NCBI GenBank assembly: GCA_000985875.1
Contig: CCRI01000002.1
Location: 372,001-436,000 of the forward strand
Length of the DNA stretch: 64,000 nucleotides
DNA from: Neorhizobium galegae bv. officinalis
Lineage (GTDB): Bacteria > Pseudomonadota > Alphaproteobacteria > Rhizobiales > Rhizobiaceae
Direction: 5' to 3'
The first letter of the stretch is position 1. Every line of letters begins with the position of its first letter. Under the pieces are notes generated by a model, which worked only from the letters and a program-made list of their open reading frames with translations, was not told the DNA's origin and searched no databases. Of the stretch, positions 1,872-13,659 are shown piece after piece. The translations under genes and the position numbers were made by a program.

Positions 1872-2629
1872 CTCCAGAAAATGTAACGCTGCTCGATGAA
1901 ACTGATCACACCGAAGAAGCAGAGGCTGATCGCCGACGCGACAATGATCGCCGCCCAGACCTGGACGAAATCGATCTGCAGCACGGCCTGATAGATCACC
2001 CAGCCAAGCCCGCCATAAGCACCCAGCATTTCGGTGACGATGGCGACGATGACGCTGCGGACGGTGGACACACGCATGCCGGCAATGATCAGCGGCAAAG
2101 CCGTTGGGAGCCGCAGACGCCAGAGCACCGCCATCCGCCCTGCCCCGAACGAGCGGACCAGATCGATCGATTTACGATCGACGCGATCCAACCCCGCGAT
2201 GGTGCTGAGGAAGACGGTGAAGCTGACGGCGACGGCGACCATGACGATCTTGGACGTCATGCCGATGCCGAACCAGAGCAGGACGAGCGGCGAATAGGCG
2301 ACGACCGGCACCGAGTTGATGGCCGTCGCAACCGACATGACGGCGCTGCGGGTGCGAGGGACCATGCTGACCCCGACGGCAACCGCAATGCCGATGACGC
2401 AGCCCAGTAGATAGCCGGTCAGGGCCTCGGCGGCGGTGAAGCGGGCGGCGTCGGCGAGTTTGCCCGCATCGGCGAACATGCCGGTAATAATGCTGCTGAC
2501 CGAAGGCAGGACATAGGCCGGCAGGTTGAAACCGCGGACGCTCAGTTCCCAGATTGCCGCAAGGAGGAAGGCCCCGGCAAAACCCCGGCTGATGCGGCGC
2601 GCGTTGCTGCTTGCGGTGACGGAGCTCAT
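1868..2629 (-). CDS. ABC transporter permease (SsuC/TauC type)
   Basis: A 253-residue inner-membrane permease with about six hydrophobic segments and the cytoplasmic EAA-type loop (VDRKSIDLVRSFGAGR) that contacts the ATPase. It belongs to the BPD-type permease family used by nitrate, sulfonate, taurine and thiamine-precursor importers. The start at 2629 was chosen because it gives a 4-bp ATGA overlap with the preceding permease. The same frame stays open upstream inside that gene, but the extra residues look like out-of-frame translation. Two different permeases (this and 2626-3423) imply a heterodimeric channel. Confidence 0.88.
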   Translation of the reverse strand: MSSVTASSNARRISRGFAGAFLLAAIWELSVRGFNLPAYVLPSVSSIITGMFADAGKLADAARFTAAEALTGYLLGCVIGIAVAVGVSMVPRTRSAVMSVATAINSVPVVAYSPLVLLWFGIGMTSKIVMVAVAVSFTVFLSTIAGLDRVDRKSIDLVRSFGAGRMAVLWRLRLPTALPLIIAGMRVSTVRSVIVAIVTEMLGAYGGLGWVIYQAVLQIDFVQVWAAIIVASAISLCFFGVISFIEQRYIFWR

Positions 2630-3423
2630 TGTTCCGCTCCCCAGAAGACGATCCGCCTTTCCGCTTCGGAAACCGCGCCGTAAAGGCCGATCCCGAGGCA
2701 GGCGGAAGCGACGATGGTGACCCAGATGCCGACGACGTTCTCGTTGTACATGGCCTGCAGCAGCAGCACGCCGAGGCCGGTCGTATCCCCGAACCATTCG
2801 CCGACGATCGCTCCGATCAGCGACAGCGACGAGGCGAGCTTGAGGGCGACGAAGATCTGCGGCAGTGCGGCCGGCAGGTAGAGGCGCCGCAGGATCTGCC
2901 CCTCTTTTGCGCCGAAGCTGCGCATCAGCGCGACCTGGCGAGGATCGACCGTTGCAAAGCCGAGAAGCGCGTTCACCGTCACCGGCAGGAAGCTGATGTA
3001 GAAGGCGATGACGGCCTTGGCGAGCAGCGTATTGCCGAACCACAGGACGACGACGGCGCCGAAGGCGATGACCGGTATGGTTTGTGACACCACAAAGAGC
3101 GGAAAGAACAGCTCCCTGAGCAGGGTCCAGCGATGGAAAAGAACGCCCATGGCAACGCCGAAAAGGCTGCCCGCGACGAAGCCGATCACCGTTTCCAGCA
3201 GCGTGCGCCACATGCTCAACAGATAAGCCTGCGGCGTGGCAAGGAATGCGGCTGCGATCGCGCTTGGTCGTGGCAGGTAATAAGGTCTGATGCCTAGCGC
3301 CACGACGATCAGCTCCACCACCAGCAGCAATGCCGCGATCCAGATCAGGGACTTCAGGATCGAGACAAACCTGTCCGCCTTTACGGCGGACAGGGATACA
3401 CGAGACAGGCCCGAGAGGCTCAC
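2626..3423 (-). CDS. ABC transporter permease (SsuC/ThiX type)
   Basis: A 265-residue integral membrane protein of the same family as the next gene, with the coupling loop VDPRQVALMRSFGAKEG around residues 160-175 and hydrophobic helices throughout. Its start codon overlaps the stop of the solute-binding protein gene (3420-3423), and its stop overlaps the start of the second permease, so the three are translationally coupled. With the NMT1/THI5-type binding protein and the ATPase it forms a complete importer, probably for a small aromatic or heterocyclic compound. The substrate is inferred from the binding-protein family only. Confidence 0.88.
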   Translation of the reverse strand: MSLSGLSRVSLSAVKADRFVSILKSLIWIAALLLVVELIVVALGIRPYYLPRPSAIAAAFLATPQAYLLSMWRTLLETVIGFVAGSLFGVAMGVLFHRWTLLRELFFPLFVVSQTIPVIAFGAVVVLWFGNTLLAKAVIAFYISFLPVTVNALLGFATVDPRQVALMRSFGAKEGQILRRLYLPAALPQIFVALKLASSLSLIGAIVGEWFGDTTGLGVLLLQAMYNENVVGIWVTIVASACLGIGLYGAVSEAERRIVFWGAEQ

Positions 3424-4445
3424 AGGCGCTTTTCCGCAACCGGGATCTTCGACAGGAAGCTGTCGTTGAACGCGGCATCGAGATCGACGGGCTTAGAGAT
3501 CACCTTGTATTCAGCGAGCAGGCTGTTGGCGGAGCCAACGGCTGTTTTGTCAATGGCGAAGAGGCCATCCGTGCCGCCCTTGCCGGCGACCATCAGCTTC
3601 TTGATCTCGGACAGCATGACTGCTTGTTGGGCGCGGTCGAGAGTCGGCGCCACCTTCATGACGATGTCGATTGCTTCTTTTTCGTTGGTCAGGGCGTATT
3701 TCCACCCCTTGATGCTGGCACGCAGGAATTTCTCGACCAGTTCCGGCTTTTCCTTGGCGGTCTGTTCCGACACGATCAATGTGTCTCGCGGAAAGGAAAC
3801 ACCGCTATCTTCGGGCACGAAGATCCGCAAATTGTCCATGCCGGCACGTTGTGCGACGATCTGAAGTTCATTGTAGCGGGTTGCGGTCGCGACATCGACC
3901 TGCTTGTCGATGAATGGTGTCATCGAGACCTGCTGTGGCTGGACATCGACTTCGCCAGCCTTGATGCCTGCCTTGGCCAGCATGGCCGAGAGCACGTGGT
4001 TTGCGCCGGTGAACCAGGCGGTCACCTTCTTGCCCTTGAAATCCTGGATGGTTTTGATCGGGCCGTCCTTGTAGGTCACGAAGACGAACGGCGTCACCTG
4101 ATGCGCAACCCCGATGCAGACGATCGGCAGGCCCTTGTCGCGTGCGGCAAAGACGCTGTCGGTGCCGCCCGAAAGGCCGAACGTGTCGGAGCCGGTCGCT
4201 ACCAGGTTTTCCGTCAACAGATTGGGGCCGCCAGGGTTGATGGTGAGGTTGATGCCCTCATCCTTGTAATACCCCTTCTCCAGCGCGACGTAGAAACCGG
4301 CGAACTGAGCCTGGGTCAGCCATTTGAGACGCAGGCTGGCATTCACTGTCTGCTGGGCAGCAGCCGGGATTGCGCTGTAGCCCAAGCCCTGGACGCCGAT
4401 GAACGTTGCGGCAAGCGCCGCGAGAAGCTGTCGTTTTTTAAGCAT
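3420..4445 (-). CDS. NMT1/THI5-type ABC solute-binding protein
   Basis: A 341-residue periplasmic binding protein with a signal peptide (basic start MLKKRQ, hydrophobic core, cleavage near AIPAAAQQ at about residue 31). The mature start LRLKWLTQAQFAGFYVA and GYYKDEGINL is the NMT1/THI5 signature also seen in ThiY and RibY, which capture pyrimidine precursors or flavin, and in SsuA-like proteins. A glycine-rich GGPNL follows. It lies 58 bp downstream of the class II aldolase gene and overlaps the permease gene by 4 bp. The ligand cannot be read from sequence; a pyrimidine-like or other heterocyclic molecule is the leading guess. Confidence 0.87.
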   Translation of the reverse strand: MLKKRQLLAALAATFIGVQGLGYSAIPAAAQQTVNASLRLKWLTQAQFAGFYVALEKGYYKDEGINLTINPGGPNLLTENLVATGSDTFGLSGGTDSVFAARDKGLPIVCIGVAHQVTPFVFVTYKDGPIKTIQDFKGKKVTAWFTGANHVLSAMLAKAGIKAGEVDVQPQQVSMTPFIDKQVDVATATRYNELQIVAQRAGMDNLRIFVPEDSGVSFPRDTLIVSEQTAKEKPELVEKFLRASIKGWKYALTNEKEAIDIVMKVAPTLDRAQQAVMLSEIKKLMVAGKGGTDGLFAIDKTAVGSANSLLAEYKVISKPVDLDAAFNDSFLSKIPVAEKRL

Positions 4446-4503
4446 GGTCCCTCTCTGTCGATTCTTGGTTGGGTTATGGTTGCGTTAGTCGTTCTCCTCC
4501 CGA

Positions 4504-5289
4504 CTATCGGCGGTAATCCGATCCCTCCCGTTCGAGCTGGCGAAGGAAGGCCGGCCATTCCCGTTCCCCTGCAATCAGGATGTCACCCTTGTTCTCCCAG
4601 AACTGACGTGCCGCCTTCTCGCAAACCTCGTGCGGCGGGGTCAGAAGCTCGGCACCGGAAGCCTGCAGATCGAGCTGAATGCGCGCGGCGCGTTCGAAGT
4701 AATAAAGCAGCATGAATGCTTCGCCCGGCGTGCGACCGAGCGTCATGATGCCATGGTTGCGCATCAGCATCACCCGGTTGTCGCCCATGTCGGCGATGAG
4801 GCGAGCCTGTTCGTCCATGTCGATCGCCACACCTTCGTAATCGTGGAAGGCCTGGCGTTGGTAGAAGCGCATGGCAAACTGCGTCAGTGGCAGAAGTCCG
4901 TTCTTCTGGCAGGAGATCGCGGTGCTGGCATCGGAATGGGTGTGGAGAACGCAGGCTGCATCGTGCACGGCCTTGTGGATGGCGCCATGGATGACGAAAG
5001 CGGCCTTGTTGATCGTATAGGGCGTGTCGTCGAGCTTGTTGCCGTCGATATCGATGCGCACGAGGCTGGAGGCCGTTATCTCGCCAAACAGGAAGCCGTA
5101 GGGGTTGAGCAGGAACTGGTCGTCATGCCCCGGTACACGCATTGAAATGTGGTTGTAGATAAGGTCATCCAGGCCCAGCCGCGCGACCATGCGGTAGCAT
5201 GCGGCGAGATCGACGCGCGCCTTCCACTCGGCTTCGGGAATGTGGGCGGGACGTTCGGCATATTCACTGGCCACCGTGTTTCCTCTCAT
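4504..5289 (-). CDS. Class II aldolase/adducin-family protein
   Basis: A 261-residue protein with the zinc site of class II aldolases: HTHSD (His116 and His118) and a third histidine in MRNHG (His179). Glycine-rich substrate loops NHISMR and NPYGFLFGEI precede them. Family members carry out retro-aldol cleavage, epimerisation or decarboxylation on small hydroxy or keto acids such as fuculose phosphate, ribulose phosphate and related compounds. It sits between the ATPase gene (3-bp gap) and the solute-binding protein gene, so it belongs to the import operon and probably acts on the transported compound or a product. A fragment of a second such gene lies at 25.7-25.9 kb. Confidence 0.85.
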   Translation of the reverse strand: MRGNTVASEYAERPAHIPEAEWKARVDLAACYRMVARLGLDDLIYNHISMRVPGHDDQFLLNPYGFLFGEITASSLVRIDIDGNKLDDTPYTINKAAFVIHGAIHKAVHDAACVLHTHSDASTAISCQKNGLLPLTQFAMRFYQRQAFHDYEGVAIDMDEQARLIADMGDNRVMLMRNHGIMTLGRTPGEAFMLLYYFERAARIQLDLQASGAELLTPPHEVCEKAARQFWENKGDILIAGEREWPAFLRQLEREGSDYRR

Positions 5290-5292
5290 ATT

Positions 5293-6222
5293 CTAATGTC
5301 CTGAAGTCATGAACGACTTCATGCTTTCCTCCTCGATGGCGTCGAGGAGTGTCTTCTTCAACCCGATGAATTCGGGCGACGTGACGATGTCGGCCTTGCG
5401 GGGGCGCGGCAAGTCGATCTTCTGTTCAAGCTTCACCTTGCCCGGCCGGGCCGTCATGACAAGCACGCGGTCGCCGAGGAAGATCGCCTCGTCGACATCG
5501 TGGGTGATGAAGAGCACGGTGCGCCGGTGTTTCTGCCAAACGTCGAGCAGCCAGCGCTGCATCATGGTTCGTGTCAGCGCATCCAGCGCGCCGAATGGTT
5601 CATCGAGCAGCATGAGATCGCGCTTGAAGAGAAACGTACGCATCAGGGCCACGCGCTGGCGCATGCCGCCCGAGAGCTGATTGGGATATTGCGCCTCAAA
5701 TCCGGAAAGCCCGAATTCCGGCAGCATCTTCAGCGCCTCCGCCCGGGCCTGCACCCGCGGCATGCCTTCGATCTCCAGCGCCAGGATGGCGTTGTCGATG
5801 ACGTTTCGCCATGGCAGCAGCAGGTCCCTTTGCGGCATGAAGGAAACTTGTCCGAGCAGTTCCGAGGCCGCAGAACTCCTGCCTCGGAAACGCAGGATAT
5901 TGCCCGGATCCGGCTCTTCGAGGCCCGCGAGGATATTGAACAGCGTGCTCTTGCCGCAGCCGGAAGGGCCGACCACCGTCACCAGCTCACCAGGAAAGAT
6001 GGTTGCCTCCAAGTTATCCAGCGCCATCACAGGGCCAAAGCTCTTGGATACCTTGCGGAGTTCGATGAGCGGCCTGTCGCCCGATACGGTCCAGGCCGGT
6101 TCCGCGGCGGGTGCAGCAAGGGCTTTGGTCTTTACCGGCCGCAACAGGCCCGCGAGACCGCGCGCTCCCGGATTCAATCCGCATGCGTAGTCCTCACTCC
6201 AAGCAATCGACATGTCGGTCAT
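5293..6222 (-). CDS. ABC transporter ATP-binding protein (SsuB/TauB type)
   Basis: The ATPase of the NMT1-type importer. It has Walker [10 protein letters not shown], signature LSGGMRQR, Walker B LMLLDEPFGALD, and the H-loop histidine in FITHDVDEA. An extension of about 45 residues precedes the nucleotide-binding domain, which begins at LIELRKVSKSFG. The start at 6222 is preferred over an in-frame ATG at 6246 because AAGGAG lies about 10 bases upstream of the former. It is the first gene of a minus-strand operon ending at 549, divergent from the desulfidase-like gene at 6623. Confidence 0.88.
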   Translation of the reverse strand: MTDMSIAWSEDYACGLNPGARGLAGLLRPVKTKALAAPAAEPAWTVSGDRPLIELRKVSKSFGPVMALDNLEATIFPGELVTVVGPSGCGKSTLFNILAGLEEPDPGNILRFRGRSSAASELLGQVSFMPQRDLLLPWRNVIDNAILALEIEGMPRVQARAEALKMLPEFGLSGFEAQYPNQLSGGMRQRVALMRTFLFKRDLMLLDEPFGALDALTRTMMQRWLLDVWQKHRRTVLFITHDVDEAIFLGDRVLVMTARPGKVKLEQKIDLPRPRKADIVTSPEFIGLKKTLLDAIEEESMKSFMTSGH

Positions 6223-6622
6223 CGAGAGGCATCTCCTTGCATGCAATTATTACCATTAAGGATGCAAGCAAGCCTCGTGCCAAACACGCCAGCTTTACAA
6301 GTTGCTAAAGAATGCCACTAATCTAGGGGTTTTTCGGGCAGGATCGAACGATCAAGGTGCTACCATGCGACAAATCGCAGCTCAAATATCCAACAATCAA
6401 AAATATGCATACGCAATGCGCATATTTTGGACGCAGATTGACCGCTATTACGGCATTGTCGCGGGTGGCATTTCCAGCAAAGCGCTCAACTTGCCGGAAA
6501 CGCGAGGCGCAAGAATAGTGGCATGGCGATTGCATCGAGGACCAATCGGCATGTCGAGCCAACTGCATTGCAGACTTCGACTATCCGCATCGGGCAGATC
6601 AAGACATCGGGAGAAGCACATC
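6223..6622. promoter_or_regulatory. Divergent promoter region with inverted repeat
   Basis: About 400 bases separate the minus-strand transporter operon from the plus-strand desulfidase-like gene, and I see no convincing gene in it. It contains an inverted repeat at 6400-6428 with 9-bp perfect arms (AAAATATGC and GCATATTTT, 11-base spacer); each arm overlaps a small palindrome (TATGCATA, ATGCGCAT). The placement between two divergent transcription units suggests an operator controlling both. No regulator gene adjoins it, so the binding protein is unknown. The stretch is richer in A+T than the flanking genes. Confidence 0.45.
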
Positions 6623-7198
6623 ATGCAGGATGAACCAAGACGAGTAGCCTATGTGGCGCACTGTCTCATGAACCAGAATGCCAAGGTCAGTGAGTTCGCA
6701 AAATGCGCCGGCGTTTTTTCTCCATTGGTCGAGCGGCTGGTCAAGAACGGGTTCGAGCTGCAACAACTGCCCTGCCCGGAGATGAGCCATATGGGTGCCG
6801 TCCGGTGGTGGGCATCCCGAGAACAGTACGACACACCTGGTTACCGGCGCCACTGCCGCAACCTGGCAAAAAGCGTCGTGGATCTCGTGATCATGCATCA
6901 GGATGCCGGCTACGACGTCGTCATCGTCGGCCTGGACGGCAGTCCGTCAAGCGGCGTCCGTCTCACCAGCACCAAGGCATCCTGGGGTGGCCGACCGGAG
7001 GGCGCCGTCCACGGCGGGAGCGATCGCCGACCCGGCATGGGCATCTGGATGGAAGAGCTGAAATTCGAGTTCGAGGAACGCGGCCTTGCATTCCCGCGCG
7101 CGACGGGCGTCGCGATGGATGCGCAGGATTTCGATCTCCAGAAGGCAATGCTCGAGCTCGACGAGTTTCTGACCGAAGGCACGGAGAATGCAGCGTGA
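6623..7198 (+). CDS. TudS-related (DUF523-like) putative desulfidase, third Cys replaced
   Basis: A 191-residue protein. The pattern AHCLMNQNAKV, then LPCPEMSHMG, then LDGSPSSGV follows the TudS-related/DUF523 family, whose characterised members remove sulfur from thiouracil with a [4Fe-4S] cluster held by three cysteines. Here Cys14 and Cys51 are in the expected places, but the third position is Ser110 (GSPSSGV instead of GSPSCGV). Other cysteines (Cys28, Cys78) exist and might substitute. The start at 6623 follows a GGGAGAAG ribosome site; the frame is open further upstream but without family resemblance. Its stop overlaps the GTG start of the next gene. A desulfidase role is inference, weakened by the missing cysteine. 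Confidence 0.7.
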   Translation: MQDEPRRVAYVAHCLMNQNAKVSEFAKCAGVFSPLVERLVKNGFELQQLPCPEMSHMGAVRWWASREQYDTPGYRRHCRNLAKSVVDLVIMHQDAGYDVVIVGLDGSPSSGVRLTSTKASWGGRPEGAVHGGSDRRPGMGIWMEELKFEFEERGLAFPRATGVAMDAQDFDLQKAMLELDEFLTEGTENAA

Positions 7199-7605
7199 TC
7201 CGGGAAGACCTGAGAAGTCGCCGCATTGCGGTCATCGCCGATTTCGTCGTCAATCCCGGCTCGGCACTTTACGGCAGACAACAAGCACCGCCGAGCGGCT
7301 TCATGGATGCGCTGGTGGAGCGCGGCTGGGGCATCATGAAGATGCCGCCGCATGTGGCAAAACCGGAAAGCTGCGAAAGGCTGATCGAGGTTTCCGTGGG
7401 CGATCTCATCGATTACCGCAAGAACGGCTACGATATGGTGATCGCCGCCGTGGAAGACCTGCCGCAGCAAGGCGTCTGGCTGGATGCCATGGCGGCCTGC
7501 TTCAGGAAGGTCGGCAAGGACATGCCGCCGATCGTCACCATCCGAACGGATGCCACGGCGGCCGATGCCGACGCACTCTATGGCGCATTGGCGCCGGCGG
7601 CCTGA
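7195..7605 (+). CDS. Unrecognised protein coupled to the TudS-related gene
   Basis: A 136-residue soluble protein I do not recognise. It begins with GTG at 7195, overlapping the previous stop codon (GTGA), so the two genes are almost certainly co-translated. The sequence alternates strands and helices: RRIAVIADFVVNPG near the start, GFMDALVERGWGIMKMPP, SVGDLIDYRKNGYDMVIAAVEDLPQQG, then PPIVTIRTDA. This is an alpha/beta layout without signal peptide or membrane segment. GWGIMKMPPHVAKPE loosely parallels the FELQQLPCPEMSHMG stretch of its partner, which raises the possibility that it is a diverged, cysteine-poor paralogue forming a heteromeric complex with it. Confidence 0.6.
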   Translation: MIREDLRSRRIAVIADFVVNPGSALYGRQQAPPSGFMDALVERGWGIMKMPPHVAKPESCERLIEVSVGDLIDYRKNGYDMVIAAVEDLPQQGVWLDAMAACFRKVGKDMPPIVTIRTDATAADADALYGALAPAA

Positions 7606-7663: not shown

Positions 7664-8608
7664 TCAGTTTTCCGCGAAAGCCTGTTTCATCATCTGGAGA
7701 AAGCCGTCGGTCGATGCCTGTTCGATGACGCGTGCGTTGACCTTGAACTCCGGCCAGCGGGTGCCGAGTTTCGGCGGGTGGATGGCGGAAAAACCGCGGG
7801 TGATTTCACCCGACGTCTCGATGCGCACCACGGCCTCGCGCGAGGATTCGATCAGATCCGGGTCGAGAGCGCAGGCGCAGGTCAGCGAATCCGGATGGGT
7901 GCTGACCGGCCGGCCGTAGCGCGCTTCCGCAGTCTCGCGCGGCACCGCAGAAACCTTCCGGTAGAATTCCGAAAGAGGCGTCTGCATCGCGAAGATCTCG
8001 TCCAGCTGGTCGCCCTCCAGAAGCCCGGAACGCATGGTCAACGTCCAGGTGGACAGCGTGATATCGAAACCCGCCTCGAAGACGATACGGGCGGCTTCCG
8101 GATCGATGAAGAAATTGTATTCGGCGCAGGGCGTGATATTGCCGACCGCATTGTCGGTGCCGCCCATGATCCAGAGGTGGCGCACCGCCTTGGCGATCCG
8201 CGGCTCCTTCATGACCGCCAGGGCGATATTGGTGAGCGGCGCCTGGGCCAGGATATCAATCTCGCCCGGCTCTGCCATCACCCGTTCGATGATGGCATCG
8301 ACCGCATGCATGGTTTCCGGCCGCTGACGGGCGATCGGCAGGTTAGCACCGCTCATTCCATCGTTGCCGTGCATGGTGGATGCTTCCCAGGGCTTCACCA
8401 TGGGGCGGCGGGCGCCGAGATAGACCGGCACCTTTCCAGAGAAACCGGCCACCTCGATGGTCGCCAGAGCGTTTTCAACCTGCTGGTCGAAGGGCACGTT
8501 GCCGACGCAGATAGTCACCGCCTCCAGCGTCGAGCCGGGGGTGCGCATGGCAAGCAGGAGCGAATAGGTGTCGTCTCCCGCCGTATCGGTGTCTATGATC
8601 AGCCGCAT
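7664..8608 (-). CDS. Inosine-uridine-preferring nucleoside hydrolase family protein
   Basis: A 314-residue protein beginning MRLIIDTDTAGDD, the calcium-binding Asp cluster (Asp6, Asp8, Asp12, Asp13) that defines ribonucleoside N-ribohydrolases. Further family landmarks are ILAQAPLTNIALA, WIMGGTDNAVGNITPCAEYNFFIDPEAA and THPDSLTCACALDP, where the Asp is the last metal ligand. It hydrolyses the N-glycosidic bond of a nucleoside to free base and ribose. The start at 8608 sits one base after the stop of the cupin gene. It is the last gene of a six-gene minus-strand operon. The presence of Cys in the PCAEYNFFIDPEAA block is a detail for specificity comparison. Confidence 0.88.
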   Translation of the reverse strand: MRLIIDTDTAGDDTYSLLLAMRTPGSTLEAVTICVGNVPFDQQVENALATIEVAGFSGKVPVYLGARRPMVKPWEASTMHGNDGMSGANLPIARQRPETMHAVDAIIERVMAEPGEIDILAQAPLTNIALAVMKEPRIAKAVRHLWIMGGTDNAVGNITPCAEYNFFIDPEAARIVFEAGFDITLSTWTLTMRSGLLEGDQLDEIFAMQTPLSEFYRKVSAVPRETAEARYGRPVSTHPDSLTCACALDPDLIESSREAVVRIETSGEITRGFSAIHPPKLGTRWPEFKVNARVIEQASTDGFLQMMKQAFAEN

Positions 8609-8609
8609 A

Positions 8610-9539
8610 TCAGTAGAACTCGAAACCCATCGTGCGGGCATGATAGTGGAAACCGCCGTCCTGAACGATCAGGAATTCGGCCCGGGTATCTCCATCATTG
8701 TGGTGGCTATGCTTGGCAGCCGGAGGCGTCACCAGCGTCGCCCATGGCGACCACGCGCATTTGGCATCCGCCACCATCGAATAGGCCGGATCGCCGTTGA
8801 CCACCAGCGTGATCGCGGCGGAGTTGTGCTTGTGCGGCGGCTGGAAACTCCGCGGCTTCAGCGTGTTCAGCGACAGGGTCATCGTCGTTGCGATATTGCG
8901 GCTTGCTTCCGTCTTTTCAGCCGAAAAGATCAGCGCATGGCCGGATGTGCTGGCATTGGCGTTGGTCCCATAAACCACGTCGAGCTGATGGCTGATCTCG
9001 CCTGCCGGATAATGCACGAAGCTGACGGCAGCGCCCTCGCCGACGATCGGCGCCGAAGCATCGAACATCAACTGCGGATCATTGCCCACCAGCCAGAAGA
9101 TGCTGTCCTGGCTCGCAGTGATGGCAGAAGGCACCCCGCCGGGAAGAAGGAAGACGTCTGCCTTGCCCAATAGAGCCTTTTCGTCACCTACAGCGAGAGC
9201 GGCCTTACCCTTGATGACGTACCAGATCGACGCGGTGTTGGTGAGCGTCGTATCGAGGACTTCGCCGGACTTGACCACCGCATAGCGGGCCAGCATCAAC
9301 GGGGTCGTCGCCGGAAAGGGGCACTGCATTTCCGCGGACAGATCGCAGTTGATGAACCCGGTCTTTTCGAGCGCGAAAGCGCTGGTCGGTTCGTCGGTGA
9401 AGATCTTGCCCGGCACCGGCGGAAGCTTGATGTTGAAGGCATTGCCGGAGTTGAAATAGCGGCTGCGCGCCTCGGCAGCATTGGCTGGATTGCGAGGCAG
9501 CTGAACCGGCATTTCGGCCATGTCGTTGACGGTGCTCAT
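8610..9539 (-). CDS. Bicupin protein (gentisate dioxygenase-like fold)
   Basis: A 309-residue protein with two cupin barrels. The C-terminal one carries a metal-binding set (PHKHNS with His236 and His238; KHSHH at 277-281), whereas the N-terminal barrel (about 85-155) lacks the usual His pair and may be structural. The length and arrangement resemble gentisate 1,2-dioxygenase and related ring-cleaving or uncharacterised bicupins. It overlaps the upstream carbamoylase gene by 4 bp and is followed directly by the nucleoside hydrolase. A role in oxygenative ring opening or isomerisation of a heterocycle is plausible but unproven. Confidence 0.75.
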   Translation of the reverse strand: MSTVNDMAEMPVQLPRNPANAAEARSRYFNSGNAFNIKLPPVPGKIFTDEPTSAFALEKTGFINCDLSAEMQCPFPATTPLMLARYAVVKSGEVLDTTLTNTASIWYVIKGKAALAVGDEKALLGKADVFLLPGGVPSAITASQDSIFWLVGNDPQLMFDASAPIVGEGAAVSFVHYPAGEISHQLDVVYGTNANASTSGHALIFSAEKTEASRNIATTMTLSLNTLKPRSFQPPHKHNSAAITLVVNGDPAYSMVADAKCAWSPWATLVTPPAAKHSHHNDGDTRAEFLIVQDGGFHYHARTMGFEFY

Positions 9540-10795
9540 GATGCATCTCCATATTTCTGCGAAAGACCTGTCTGCTCCAGTAGCAGATCGAGAAGAACGG
9601 CCGCGCCGGCTGCGACGTGTTCCGGTTCAGCCCACTCGTCGGGATGATGGCTGAGACCGGCGCGACAGGGGATGAAAATCATCGCACTCGGAGCAAGCGA
9701 CGCCATCTGCCGGGCATCATGCCCTGCCGCCGAAAGCAAATCGAGCGCCCAATAGCCATGGCGGCCGGCGGAACGGCGTATCGCTGCCCGAAGCCCCTCG
9801 TCAAACGTGTTCGAGGGGGCATCGACCAGGCGTTTGATATGGAAGCTGCAGGGATGCGCCTCCTCGGCAGCGATCGCCTCCAGGCGCAGGCCGAGCCGGT
9901 CGAGCACAGCATTGTCCGGATGCCGGAGATCGATGCGGAAGACTGCGCTGGAAGGCACGACCGACGGCGCGTTGGGTTGGATTTCCAGCCGGCCGATAGT
10001 GAATTTCACCACGTCATCGACCGCCATGTCCTGCTGCATGCGCAGCGCCATGCGCACAAACGCCTGCAACGCGTCCTGGCGGCGCTCCATCGGCTCGGTG
10101 CCGGCATGCGCTTCACGTCCGGATATGATGATCTCGTAGGTTTTCTTGCCCTGAATGCCGGAAACGACGCCGATTACCGCACCGGCGCGTTCGAGCACGT
10201 CCGCCTGTTCGATATGCGGTTCGATATAGGCGTGGACGGGAAACCCGAGCGGCCGATGCTCTATATCCGGAAAGGCGGCATGCACGGCGGCCAGTGCCTC
10301 GGCCACGGTGATACCGGCGGCGTCCTTGACCGCCATGACCTCATCCATCGTTCGCTTGCCGGCGAAAAGCTCGGACCCCATCATTCCAGGCGCAAACCGG
10401 CTGCCCTCTTCATTCATCCATGCGACAACCGTGATGGGCCGCTCCGGTATCATGCCTGCCTCGGCTATAGCCGTTACGGCTTCGAGCGCCGCCAGCGTGC
10501 CGAATGCCCCATCAAAAAGACCGCCCGTCGGCTGACTGTCGACATGACTGCCGGCGACGACGGGCGACAGGTGGGGAAACTTGCCGTCGAGTGTCAGAAA
10601 AAGGTTTCCGGCCGCGTCCGTGGAGGGTTTCAAGCCTTCCTCGGCGCTCCATGCGATGATGCGGCGCCAGCTGAGAATTTCCTCGGCCGACAGGGCCTGG
10701 CGATTGACGCCCTTCTCGGGCAGGGCGCCATCTCTGCCGAGTTCCATGAGCCGCGACCACAGCCGCTCCGGGGATATCGAGGCCACGCCGGTCAT
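9536..10795 (-). CDS. M20-family amidohydrolase (N-carbamoyl-amino-acid hydrolase/allantoate amidohydrolase type)
   Basis: A 419-residue binuclear-metal amidohydrolase. Family landmarks are AGSHVDSQPTGGLFDGAFG (His84 and Asp95 as ligands), NEEGSRFAPGMMGS (the Glu pair), EPHIEQ near residue 193, and the dimerisation region with HAGTEPM. Members hydrolyse ureido groups: N-carbamoyl-L-amino acids, N-carbamoyl-beta-alanine (pyrimidine degradation), allantoate or ureidoglycolate. It lies four bases after the alpha/beta-hydrolase gene and overlaps the cupin gene by 4 bp. Together with a nucleoside hydrolase in the same operon, a ureido intermediate of base degradation is an attractive substrate. 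Confidence 0.87.
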   Translation of the reverse strand: MTGVASISPERLWSRLMELGRDGALPEKGVNRQALSAEEILSWRRIIAWSAEEGLKPSTDAAGNLFLTLDGKFPHLSPVVAGSHVDSQPTGGLFDGAFGTLAALEAVTAIAEAGMIPERPITVVAWMNEEGSRFAPGMMGSELFAGKRTMDEVMAVKDAAGITVAEALAAVHAAFPDIEHRPLGFPVHAYIEPHIEQADVLERAGAVIGVVSGIQGKKTYEIIISGREAHAGTEPMERRQDALQAFVRMALRMQQDMAVDDVVKFTIGRLEIQPNAPSVVPSSAVFRIDLRHPDNAVLDRLGLRLEAIAAEEAHPCSFHIKRLVDAPSNTFDEGLRAAIRRSAGRHGYWALDLLSAAGHDARQMASLAPSAMIFIPCRAGLSHHPDEWAEPEHVAAGAAVLLDLLLEQTGLSQKYGDAS

Positions 10796-10799
10796 TGCG

Positions 10800-11678
10800 C
10801 TATTCCGTCCGCATCACCTGTCCCGGATCGGCGCGCGGATCGCGCACTTTCCAGGCGCCCGCTTCCACCTGGCCGATAAAATCGGATACCAGCGTGTTGA
10901 ACAGGGCGGGTTCCTCGAGATTGAGCGTATGCCCGGTCTTCGGCAGGATCGCGAGGCCGCTGGCGGGAAGCGTCTTCTTCAGGAAGATGCTCGGCTGGAG
11001 GCAATGATCGTCCTCGTCGCCGGACATGATCAGGGTCGGAACCATCATCTTCTTCAGTTCGTCTTCCAGGTCCCAGAAAGATGGCCGGCGGCACTGTACG
11101 CCGCGCATGGTGTTGGCCGCGCCAACGGCGGAGTGCCGCGACAGCCGCTCCGCAAAGGCTGCCCAGCCGCGCGGATCCTTGTTCTGGAACTGCACGCGGC
11201 TTGCGCCGAGCGAATAGATCTTCGAGAAACCGACCGGATCCTTTTCGAAATTATCGGCGACCTTCAGCGACGTATTGCGGAAATAATCGGCCGTGGCGCG
11301 CTCCGTACCGTAACCGGCACCGGCGACCGTCAGCGATAGCGCCCGCTCAGGGAAGCGCAGGCCGAAATGCAGCGTCGCAAAACCGCCCATCGACAGGCCG
11401 ACGATATGGGCCTTCTCGATGCCGAGACCGTCGAGCACAGCCAGGGCATCTTCTGCCGCCAGCGCCTGCGAATACTGTTCGACATCCGCCGGGATATCGG
11501 ACGGAGCATAACCGCGGGCCGCATAGGTGATGCAGCGGTTGCGCCGGGGAAAAAAGCTCATCTGCGGTTCCCAGGCGTCGTAATTGCCGCCGAACTCGTG
11601 GATGAACAGGATCGGCGTTCCGGTCTCGCCTGCCGTTTCGTAATAGAGCTTGATGCCATCCTTGCTGGTCACGAACAT
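10800..11678 (-). CDS. Alpha/beta-fold hydrolase
   Basis: A 292-residue alpha/beta-hydrolase with the nucleophile elbow GLSMGG (Ser96), oxyanion region FIHEFGGNYDAW at residues 25-36, an acid following MVPTLIMSGDEDDH, and the catalytic histidine in KTGHTLNLEEP near residue 257. There is no signal peptide, so it acts in the cytosol. It is similar in organisation to enol-lactonases and aminoacrylate-type hydrolases, but specificity cannot be fixed. It follows the aminotransferase gene by 44 bases within the same operon. Confidence 0.85.
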   Translation of the reverse strand: MFVTSKDGIKLYYETAGETGTPILFIHEFGGNYDAWEPQMSFFPRRNRCITYAARGYAPSDIPADVEQYSQALAAEDALAVLDGLGIEKAHIVGLSMGGFATLHFGLRFPERALSLTVAGAGYGTERATADYFRNTSLKVADNFEKDPVGFSKIYSLGASRVQFQNKDPRGWAAFAERLSRHSAVGAANTMRGVQCRRPSFWDLEDELKKMMVPTLIMSGDEDDHCLQPSIFLKKTLPASGLAILPKTGHTLNLEEPALFNTLVSDFIGQVEAGAWKVRDPRADPGQVMRTE

Positions 11679-11722
11679 GAACCGGCTACTCCCGTATATG
11701 CTGCTGGGTCAAGAGACCGGCC

Positions 11723-12853
11723 CTAGAAGAGGGCCGGCACGTCGTTCAGTGTGCGCGCGGTCGCGATATAGCCGGGCAGGCCTTCGCAGAAGCGTTCGGC
11801 CCAGGCTGATGGCACCGAGGTCGAGACCTTGATGAACCGGTCGCCGAAACGCGCCGTGTGGTACCGACCCTGCCGGATCATGACGCCTTCGCGGCGGGCC
11901 GCCTCGACGATCGCTTCGGGCAAAACGCCGGTGGCCGCCGTTTCCAGCACGAGGAAATTGCCGTGCGACGGCTGGACCGGCACTGTGATGCCGGCAGCTT
12001 CCGCGGCCGCGACGATCATCGCCTTGTTCGCCCTGTCGATAGTCCGTACGTCCTTCATCCATTCGGTTTTGACCGAAAGCCCGGCCATCGCGGCGCGTTG
12101 GGCGACGACAGATGCACCGAGCACGGAGGTCGAGGCGGACGAAAACTCGTCGACCAGCGCGGGGGATGCGACGAGCGCGCCGATGCGCATGCCGGCGAGC
12201 CCCAGCCACTTGGAAAAGCTCAGCGAAACGACGGTACCTTCCGGCGCGACCTGCAGGACAGGCGTGTGGCCGTCGGCGAAATCGCGGTAGGTGCAGTCGT
12301 GGATCATCAAGGCGCCGACCGAACGGGCGATCTCGGCAAAGGCCTCGATTTCCTCGCGGTCGTAGCGGATGCCGAGCGGATTGTTGGGATCGACGATGTA
12401 GATCAGCGCGCAACGCTCATCGACGGCAGCCCGCAGGGCATCCGGGGTCAGCTTGTATTTGGTCGCAGGGTCATAGATCGGAATCTGGATGACTTCGGCG
12501 CCGGCCTGTTCGGCAAACATGCACGGCCATTTCCAGGTCGGGTCCGTCGTCACCAGTGTCGTGCCGGGCCTGGCGCGCGCCTTGCAGATCATCGCCAGCG
12601 CATTGACGCCGCCTTCCGTCACCAGCGCCTCTGCCGACAGGACGCCGAGATCGGCGACAATCCCGGCTCGAAGCGCCTCAAAACCCATCGGCGGCGCGTA
12701 GGCATTGAATTCACCTGCCTCGACCGAGCGGATCATGGCCTCGCGAACAGCGGGATGCGCGGGGATGTGGTTGGTGTTCTGCCCCATCCACGCCAGGTCC
12801 GGCGTGGAGAACAAGTCGTCGAAATAGCGGTTTCGAATGCGGGCGTCGCTCAT
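11723..12853 (-). CDS. PLP-dependent aminotransferase, class I/II
   Basis: A 376-residue fold-type I aminotransferase. Diagnostic residues are Asn158 in DPNNPLG, Asp186 in MIHDCTYRDF that pairs with the cofactor ring nitrogen, Lys215 in LSFSKWLGLAGMR that forms the Schiff base, and Arg223 near the phosphate. The C-terminal substrate-carboxylate Arg is likely in GDRFIKVSTS. The start at 12853 sits five bases downstream of the SDR gene; an upstream in-frame extension is translation through that gene and was rejected. It probably removes or exchanges the amino group of a product released by the carbamoylase in the same operon. The exact substrate is unknown. Confidence 0.87.
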   Translation of the reverse strand: MSDARIRNRYFDDLFSTPDLAWMGQNTNHIPAHPAVREAMIRSVEAGEFNAYAPPMGFEALRAGIVADLGVLSAEALVTEGGVNALAMICKARARPGTTLVTTDPTWKWPCMFAEQAGAEVIQIPIYDPATKYKLTPDALRAAVDERCALIYIVDPNNPLGIRYDREEIEAFAEIARSVGALMIHDCTYRDFADGHTPVLQVAPEGTVVSLSFSKWLGLAGMRIGALVASPALVDEFSSASTSVLGASVVAQRAAMAGLSVKTEWMKDVRTIDRANKAMIVAAAEAAGITVPVQPSHGNFLVLETAATGVLPEAIVEAARREGVMIRQGRYHTARFGDRFIKVSTSVPSAWAERFCEGLPGYIATARTLNDVPALF

Positions 12854-12858
12854 GATCG

Positions 12859-13659
12859 TCAGATCACCGAACCACGCGCCGCGATACCGCCGTCGATGGT
12901 GACGACCGTGCCGGTGATATAACCGGCCTTGGGCGAGGCGAGGAAGGCGCAGAGATCGGCGACTTCCTCGGCCGTAGCCGGGCGCTTGCCCGGATACTTG
13001 TCGTAGAGTTCCTTCCAACGGCTCTCATCACCGAGCATGTCGATCGCCTTGCGCTTCATGATCTTGAACATCCGCGCGGTATCGACCGGCCCGGGATTGA
13101 CGCCGATGACGCGGATGCCCTGATCGAGACTGCGGCCGCCGAGTGCCTTGGTGAAGCTCATCAGCGCTGCGTTACCGGTCGAGCCGGCAAAATAGGCGGC
13201 ATCCCAGTTTTCGCCGGAATTGCCGATGACGTTGATGATGACGCCGTCGCGACCCTTGCGGCGCTTCCAGAATTCGCGCGAAAGGGTAATGTAGCCGAAG
13301 ACCTTGAGATCGAAACCACGGCGGATGGCCTCGTCGGTGACGTCCTCGATCGAACCGGCGGGGATATCACCCGCGTTGTTGATCAGGATATCATAGTCGC
13401 CACAGGCCTTGTCGAGTGCGACCATTGCTTCGGTCGTGCTCAGATCCGCCTCGTGCACGGTAACGTTGACCGGATACTGGGCGAGTTCCTTCTTAAGGGC
13501 CTGCATGGCTGCGCCGTTGCGGGCGGCCAGGTGGAGGTGACATCCTTCAGCGGCCAGAACCTTCGCGATCGCGTAGCCGATGCCTTGGGATGCTCCGGTG
13601 ATGAGGGCCGTTTTGCCGGCAAGATTCAGTTCCACCTGCGTCTCCTGTGCTGAATACAT
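12859..13659 (-). CDS. SDR-family protein lacking the catalytic lysine
   Basis: A 266-residue classical SDR fold: cofactor loop TGASQGIG (21-28), ADLS after strand 4, NNAG at 94-97, and the C-terminal TGTVVTIDGG. The catalytic tetrad is disturbed: where YxxxK is expected the protein has YFAGS (Tyr156, Ser160), so the lysine that lowers the tyrosine pKa is absent. This STGNAAL variant may define a subfamily with altered or lost redox chemistry. It is the first gene of the operon running to 7664. The start at 13659 was chosen because little family sequence precedes it, but ATGs at 13683 and 13731 are possible and no site has a strong ribosome-binding sequence. Confidence 0.8.
   Translation of the reverse strand: MYSAQETQVELNLAGKTALITGASQGIGYAIAKVLAAEGCHLHLAARNGAAMQALKKELAQYPVNVTVHEADLSTTEAMVALDKACGDYDILINNAGDIPAGSIEDVTDEAIRRGFDLKVFGYITLSREFWKRRKGRDGVIINVIGNSGENWDAAYFAGSTGNAALMSFTKALGGRSLDQGIRVIGVNPGPVDTARMFKIMKRKAIDMLGDESRWKELYDKYPGKRPATAEEVADLCAFLASPKAGYITGTVVTIDGGIAARGSVI

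Follow-up and report, generated by a model that had tools for sequence, protein, structure and literature searches.

In a 64,000-nucleotide stretch of Neorhizobium galegae bv. officinalis DNA (here called the window), the gene for a TudS-like protein with serine at its third cluster-ligand site overlaps a second gene, whose product is, by sequence comparison, a shortened, cysteine-poor paralogue of the first (Table 1). With moderate confidence, we read the pair as a two-subunit TudS-type enzyme in which the degenerate subunit makes the third ligand dispensable, encoded in clusters for N-heterocycle or nucleoside breakdown. The observations behind this reading are the paralogy and linkage of the two genes, a naturally fused form, the way cysteine loss is distributed among relatives, the TudS fold of the predicted model, and a heterocycle and nucleoside catabolic context.

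Table 1. The gene pair and its neighbors in the window
Feature	Positions	Strand	Remarks
TudS-like gene	6623..7198	+	191 aa, ATG start; CD3072-type
Partner gene	7195..7605	+	136 aa, GTG start
GTGA overlap, two reading frames	7195..7198	+
Ser110 codon	6950..6952	+	AGC; third-ligand site
ABC transporter with NMT1/THI5-like binding protein, and aldolase-family gene	2626..6246	-
ABC permease	2626-3423	-
NMT1/THI5-like binding protein	3420-4445	-
Class II aldolase-family gene	4504-5289	-
ABC ATPase	5293-6246	-
IUNH-type nucleoside hydrolase	7664..8641	-	also in Tropicimonas (L007)
M20 hydantoinase/carbamoylase-family amidase, alpha/beta hydrolase, PRK06225-type aminotransferase	9536..12868	-

A TudS-like protein and its third ligand site

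Searched against NCBIfam, the TudS-like protein matched a single family, NF045597 ("CD3072 family TudS-related putative desulfidase"), at 125.3 bits, a score that does not reach the cut-off of 130. Against Pfam PF04463 (DUF523, 2-thiouracil desulfurase) it scored 15.1 bits (E 0.023), and the gathering score of 34.7 was not reached. In the window genome, PF04463 had no match at E 0.001, and this protein was the only NF045597 match at E 0.1. An archaeal form with serine at the same site (L028) scored 138.8 bits against NF045597, over the cut-off, so automatic naming may miss the absent ligand.

A sequence search against solved structures gave nothing credible. The predicted model (pLDDT 80, pTM 0.81) was compared with the PDB by Foldseek, and the top five matches were TudS crystal structures (probability 1.00, TM-score 0.45 to 0.47 by query length), with entries 6z92, 6z96, 6zw9, and 6z93 among the matches at probability 1.00. 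VIA placed four TudS entries at Z 9.3 to 9.5, with the next row at 7.4; the best had 144 residues aligned at an rmsd of 3.7. The fold of the protein, as modeled, is the TudS fold, and the relationship to TudS proposed in the earlier note is upheld.

The cluster of TudS-type enzymes is bound by three cysteines, which leaves one iron open. In TudS, the ligands are Cys10, Cys43, and Cys104 and the catalytic residues are Glu45, Ser101, and Ser103, according to the available part of the report (PMC10611767). Mapped by sequence motif and spacing, not superposition, the ligands correspond to Cys14, Cys51, and Ser110 and the catalytic residues to Glu53, Ser107, and Ser109, the latter at the same spacing to the ligand sites as in TudS. 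The GSPSC motif of relatives reads GSPSS in the window, with Ser110 at the site of the third cluster cysteine; the absence of that cysteine, with Cys14 and Cys51 in place, is thus as first described. The only cysteines are at positions 14, 28, 51, and 78. Cys14, Cys51, Glu53, Arg61, and Ser107 were invariant across an alignment of 49 relatives, which includes the window, and Ser109 was kept in 35 of these, with Thr or Asn in the others.

Serine also occupies the third site in the Neorhizobium/Rhizobium loci L001, L002, and L004 and in L003, L007, L008, and L009. The TudS-like proteins of L001 (99%) and of L002 and L004 (97%) are nearly identical to the window copy. Purifying selection acts on both genes within Neorhizobium; dN/dS for the TudS-like gene was 0.02 to 0.06 there and 0.10 to 0.20 against Pinisolibacter. 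A point mutation or sequencing error at Ser110 was ruled out by the serine in these seven related loci and the low dN/dS.

Upstream of its ATG, the TudS-like gene has an open frame back to position 6302 (6302 to 6622 of the window). The ATG at 6623 is favored as the start because the stop-to-stop frame of L002 begins just 12 bases 5' of its ATG. In N. galegae VafX2 (CP090555.1; L059:9001-9575), the TudS-like gene is annotated as two hypothetical proteins and matches in two pieces with the partner ORF open, which suggests a frameshifted copy. The partner gene of N. galegae DS1978 (L004:8573-8965) is six codons shorter at its end than that of the window. One annotated plasmid record labels the genes "hypothetical protein."

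A degenerate partner and the pattern of cysteine loss

The GTGA overlap suggests translational coupling of the pair. The tight coupling noted earlier is also seen in the adjacency of the genes in relatives and in Tropicimonas (L007), where both proteins are fused in one reading frame.

The partner had been described in the earlier note as a protein of unknown family with a segment loosely parallel to its neighbor. It has no Pfam match at E values up to 10. The parallel segment reflects real homology, and the partner is, by sequence, a degenerate TudS-like paralogue, not an unrelated protein. BLASTP of the TudS-like protein against the partner gave 24% identity at E 2e-5 and 28.1 bits, compared with a maximum of 20.4 bits over 200 shuffles. 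The hhalign probability was 96.8 to 97.2 over runs (97.1 with a 38-row profile) and at most 1.2 over 50 column shuffles. Profiles of the partner family also matched TudS-like proteins that have no partner (e.g., L005, L033, L036, and L037), and in NCBIfam the partner itself weakly matched the TudS-related family (E 0.043). It lacks the cluster cysteines, the CPE loop, and the SPSC loop. Its predicted model (pLDDT 82.7, pTM 0.79) resembles the TudS-like model in the order of strands and helices, with the active-site loops missing. Two fold searches with that model returned generic Rossmann-like folds, with TudS not among the best 50 matches listed in either, and the case for paralogy therefore comes from sequence.

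Arg7, Asp16, Gly44, Gly46, and Pro51 were invariant in 18 two-gene-type partners, and no Cys or His column was conserved in them. The partner gene is under looser constraint than the TudS-like gene, with dN/dS of 0.07 to 0.31 within Neorhizobium and 0.46 to 0.57 against Pinisolibacter. Fusion-model alignments A3 and A5 were excluded, MAFFT having placed the partner rows on the wrong half; A4 was correct and contained no TudS-like rows.

The pair is rare and scattered over Alphaproteobacteria and Thermoproteota archaea. The partner adjoins the TudS-like gene in the window and in L001 to L004, L008, L009, L016, L020, L021, L027 to L032, and L059. The alphaproteobacterial holders are Neorhizobium/Rhizobium, Pinisolibacter (L003), Tropicimonas (L007), Zavarzinia (L008), and Rhodobacter (L009); the six fetched Thermoproteota loci with a partner downstream are L027 to L032. 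Archaeal long ORFs carry a remote partner-like C-terminal domain in L041, L042, L043, L047, and L066 (by profile) and in L040 and L053 (by alignment only). The archaeal sample consists of 30 fetched places from a list of 51, with L005 and L006 appearing in it a second time. No relative was confirmed in any of 121 candidate stretches from viral contigs.

Prevalence figures are lower bounds, because only part of the candidates were scored in the large genome searches (e.g., 8 of 26 for G000). TudS-like genes occur in at least 4 of 385 genomes of the window's class, at least 1 of 199 of its family and at least 1 of 398 of its phylum (in both cases the window's own genome), and at least 1 of 295 genomes of the family around the Rhodobacter locus (likewise that locus's own genome). 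In Thermoproteota, the phylum of the L005 organism, the figure is at least 49 of 250. Among 372 genomes of the class, at least two matched the partner profile, and the two found also have a TudS-like gene; two other holders of TudS-like genes in the class (G073 and G285) keep the third cysteine and gave no partner match.

Among 49 sampled places, the third cysteine was kept in all 25 without a partner, where "without" means none in the fetched stretch (about 1.5 kb per side for most loci from the genome searches; in L039 the downstream side covered about 0.46 kb), and in 10 of the 24 with one, L020, L030, L031, and L032 included. Loss was thus found in 14 of 24 places with a partner and 0 of 25 without. 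The co-occurrence of the cysteine-to-serine change with the partner, raised in the earlier note, holds in one direction: the loss was seen only with a partner, but a partner does not need the loss. The contrary case, that all partner-bearing relatives keep the third cysteine, is contradicted by the 14 losses. These counts treat the C-terminal partner-like domains of the archaeal long ORFs as partners; L040 and L053 were counted as fused by alignment, being unreported by profile, and without these two, 8 of 22 partner-bearing places keep the cysteine. Loci L011 to L015, L017, L018, L024, L025, and L026 were left out as the same places as other loci, with L016 kept; also outside the count are one frameshifted piece of L059; L066, which is a second TudS-like gene in G1442; and L067, which coincides with L008.

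The residue at the third site in the 14 losses is Ser in 12 and Met in 2, encoded by AGY in nine (Alphaproteobacteria), TCN in three (archaea), and ATG in two (Met); AGY and TCN are more than one base change apart. Five of the 14 rows are near-identical Neorhizobium. In a tree of the 49 rows with the third-site column removed, the 18 two-gene-type rows grouped together (support 90/93), and L020, which keeps the third cysteine, was sister to the two Met rows. Forcing the 14 loss rows into one clade was rejected (AU p 8e-88); holding the 24 partner rows together was not (p 0.37). The minimum number of changes was two for Cys/non-Cys, with reversal allowed, and four for codon class. These results point to at least two losses of the third cysteine, and probably more, with the archaeal loss apparently separate. 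Partner presence and cysteine loss are both clustered on the tree, which offers two independent pairs, and the association between them therefore carries no formal significance.

Readings of the two-cysteine site

Under the favored reading, the 191-residue protein would be the catalytic subunit, a presumed [4Fe-4S] desulfidase of the CD3072 type, and the 136-residue protein, a degenerate copy that lost the active-site loops and the cluster cysteines, would be a structural or substrate-positioning subunit. With the degenerate subunit in place, the third cluster cysteine may have become dispensable and given way to Ser or Met on more than one occasion. Cys14, Cys51, and a weak ligand (the Ser110 oxygen, solvent, or substrate) would then bind the cluster, which, enclosed in the complex, would remove sulfur from a thio-N-heterocycle. 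Within this scheme we infer complex formation, an Fe-S cluster, desulfidation, and the class of substrate; indirect signs of physical association are the gene overlap, the adjacency, and the L007 fusion. Tolerance of two cysteines has precedent: alone among cysteine variants that were otherwise inactive, RudS_TT C47A was still active, and the RudS authors cite a Bacteroides thetaiotaomicron fumarase without the third cysteine (available part of PMC11417400). Several points count against the two-subunit reading: most of the other RudS variants assayed were inactive once a cluster cysteine was gone (same source, as far as available), the partner is under weaker constraint, the fold matches listed for its model are generic and do not include TudS, and the losses, five of them in near-identical Neorhizobium rows, need as few as two changes on a tree where both they and the partner are clustered.

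In the archaeal genome G950, an orphan partner-like ORF (L019:10075-10365) lies just 3' of two small ORFs, the first of them nucleotidyltransferase-like by eye, and no TudS-like match was found on its 11.7-kb contig. The TudS-like gene of G950 (L010) is on a far larger contig and keeps the third cysteine, and the orphan also counts against a two-subunit enzyme. Tentatively, and with less confidence than we place in the two-subunit reading itself, the pair may represent a class of two-subunit desulfidases in archaea and Alphaproteobacteria, with a cluster-less twin and a [4Fe-4S] cluster on two cysteines, in which the third ligand was lost several times after the twin appeared.

It is unlikely that three protein ligands from the same subunit were kept, with Cys28 in Alphaproteobacteria and Cys78 elsewhere, or Ser110, taking over and the partner incidental. 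Cys28 and Cys78 had both been put forward earlier as reassigned ligands. All 12 alphaproteobacterial pair proteins have Cys28, as against 1 of 25 partner-less rows (L045), and the residue lies in a stretch of the predicted model with pLDDT below 50; Cys78 is present in 46 of 49 rows. Position 28, however, is Tyr in the archaeal Ser forms L027 to L029, so Cys28 is no general substitute; it is Tyr or Arg in L030 to L032, and in L020 both Cys28 and the third cysteine are present. Cys78 is kept with or without the third cysteine and is therefore no specific replacement, and two of the loss rows have Met, not Ser. Given these patterns, no single residue gained with the loss offers a general explanation.

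We also consider it improbable that the pair now lacks a desulfidase cluster and serves in binding or sensing or as a non-Fe-S enzyme, the third cysteine having decayed. Such decay would fit the repeated loss of one of three defining ligands, the scores below both the Pfam and NCBIfam cut-offs, and the inactivity of most of the RudS cysteine variants described above. Against it stand the five residues invariant in 49 rows, Cys14, Cys51, and Glu53 among them, the Ser form L028 that passes the family cut-off, and the low dN/dS of the TudS-like gene. Very unlikely is a partner that donates an oxygen ligand in trans for the third cysteine, e.g., from Asp16: this residue is found in 18 of 18 two-gene-type partners, a group that includes all 14 losses, and in none of seven orphan or remote fused forms, for which the TudS-like protein retains its cysteine, but it is also present in L020 and L030 to L032, where the third cysteine is kept, and it aligns beside the Cys14 position, away from the third site. 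A partner Cys or His in that role, which the earlier suggestion of a ligand in trans would allow, finds no conserved candidate in the 18 partners.

Relatives with three cysteines, with a partner and three cysteines, and with a partner and two cysteines plus Ser or Met form a natural series. It allows direct comparison on the role of the third ligand and on whether a pseudoenzyme subunit can make that ligand unnecessary.

Genomic context and known systems

The amidase encoded near the pair matches TIGR01879 at 371 bits (cut-off 204), and the amidase, hydrolase, and aminotransferase genes also adjoin the pair in Pinisolibacter (L003), Tropicimonas (L007), and Rhodobacter (L009). A neighbor in L016 is of the caprolactamase-alpha type (499.6 bits, below the cut-off of 1000), which we take to be related to hydantoinase A. 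The archaeal pairs L062 and L063 lie near genes for AllG (in L063 also AllH) oxamate carbamoyltransferase subunits and for molybdenum hydroxylase large subunits, and carbamoyltransferase and amidohydrolase genes are near L065. A CoA-ligase-domain gene and a putative cyclase are also found around L062 and L063, which possibly represent an undescribed N-heterocycle breakdown cluster. These contexts vary between groups and point to N-heterocycle or nucleoside breakdown; an uncharacterized desulfidase family tied to such clusters offers a narrower substrate search.

CD3072 genes adjoin CD3073 on Cetobacterium and Enterococcus plasmids (three plasmid genes), and an ECF transporter S component in L007 resembles CD3073 (136.8 bits, below the cut-off of 180). 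Among the window neighbors, no CD3073-type ECF transporter is present, and the NMT1-type ABC system is found instead. On plasmids of Enterococcus gilvus and E. raffinosus (L056 and L057), CD3072/CD3073 lie directly 3' of selB, an aminotransferase-fold gene, and selA; a link of the TudS-related family to selenium metabolism is possible.

The window protein shares with TudS (PF04463; PDB 6Z92-6Z96) the predicted fold, two of three cluster cysteines, the CPE glutamate, and both catalytic serines at the same spacing. Unlike TudS, it has Ser110 at the third-ligand site, is encoded with a paralogue, and falls far under the Pfam cut-off; the TudS thiouracil/4-thio-UMP desulfidase is reported, in the part of PMC10611767 available, to be a monomer with three Cys ligands. 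The CD3072 family (NF045597) is its sole NCBIfam match, and the Tropicimonas relative adjoins a CD3073-like ECF S component as the plasmid genes do; the window protein differs in scoring just under the cut-off, in lacking the third cysteine, and in having a partner gene and an NMT1-type ABC system, not ECF. The literature as searched (titles and abstracts, with subscription journals thinly covered) yielded no description of a TudS-like/partner pair and no paper on the activity or Fe-S content of CD3072 proteins.

In RudS, a TudS-type domain is likewise coupled to a second domain, but that domain is DUF1722, not a TudS paralogue, and the RudS proteins in the available part of the report have three cysteines each (PMC11417400). 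The 2-hydroxyacyl-CoA dehydratases and class I benzoyl-CoA reductases show weak fold similarity (3o3n_B and 7yyl_A, Z 6.9), and their heterodimers consist of homologous subunits with diverged clusters; unlike the pair, they carry clusters in both subunits and catalyze other reactions. TudS has been assigned to this family, which includes heterodimers (PMC11971306, available in part). The nearest precedent found for pairing an Fe-S enzyme with a degenerate homologue is the tRNA thiolase Ctu1/Ctu2 (Ncs6/Ncs2), whose subunits are homologous and whose second subunit lacks cluster cysteines (PMC10067955, available in part). The window pair resembles this arrangement in both respects, with a homologous second protein that is without cluster cysteines; the thiolase differs in its PP-loop ATPase fold, in its reaction, and in a catalytic subunit that keeps its cluster cysteines.
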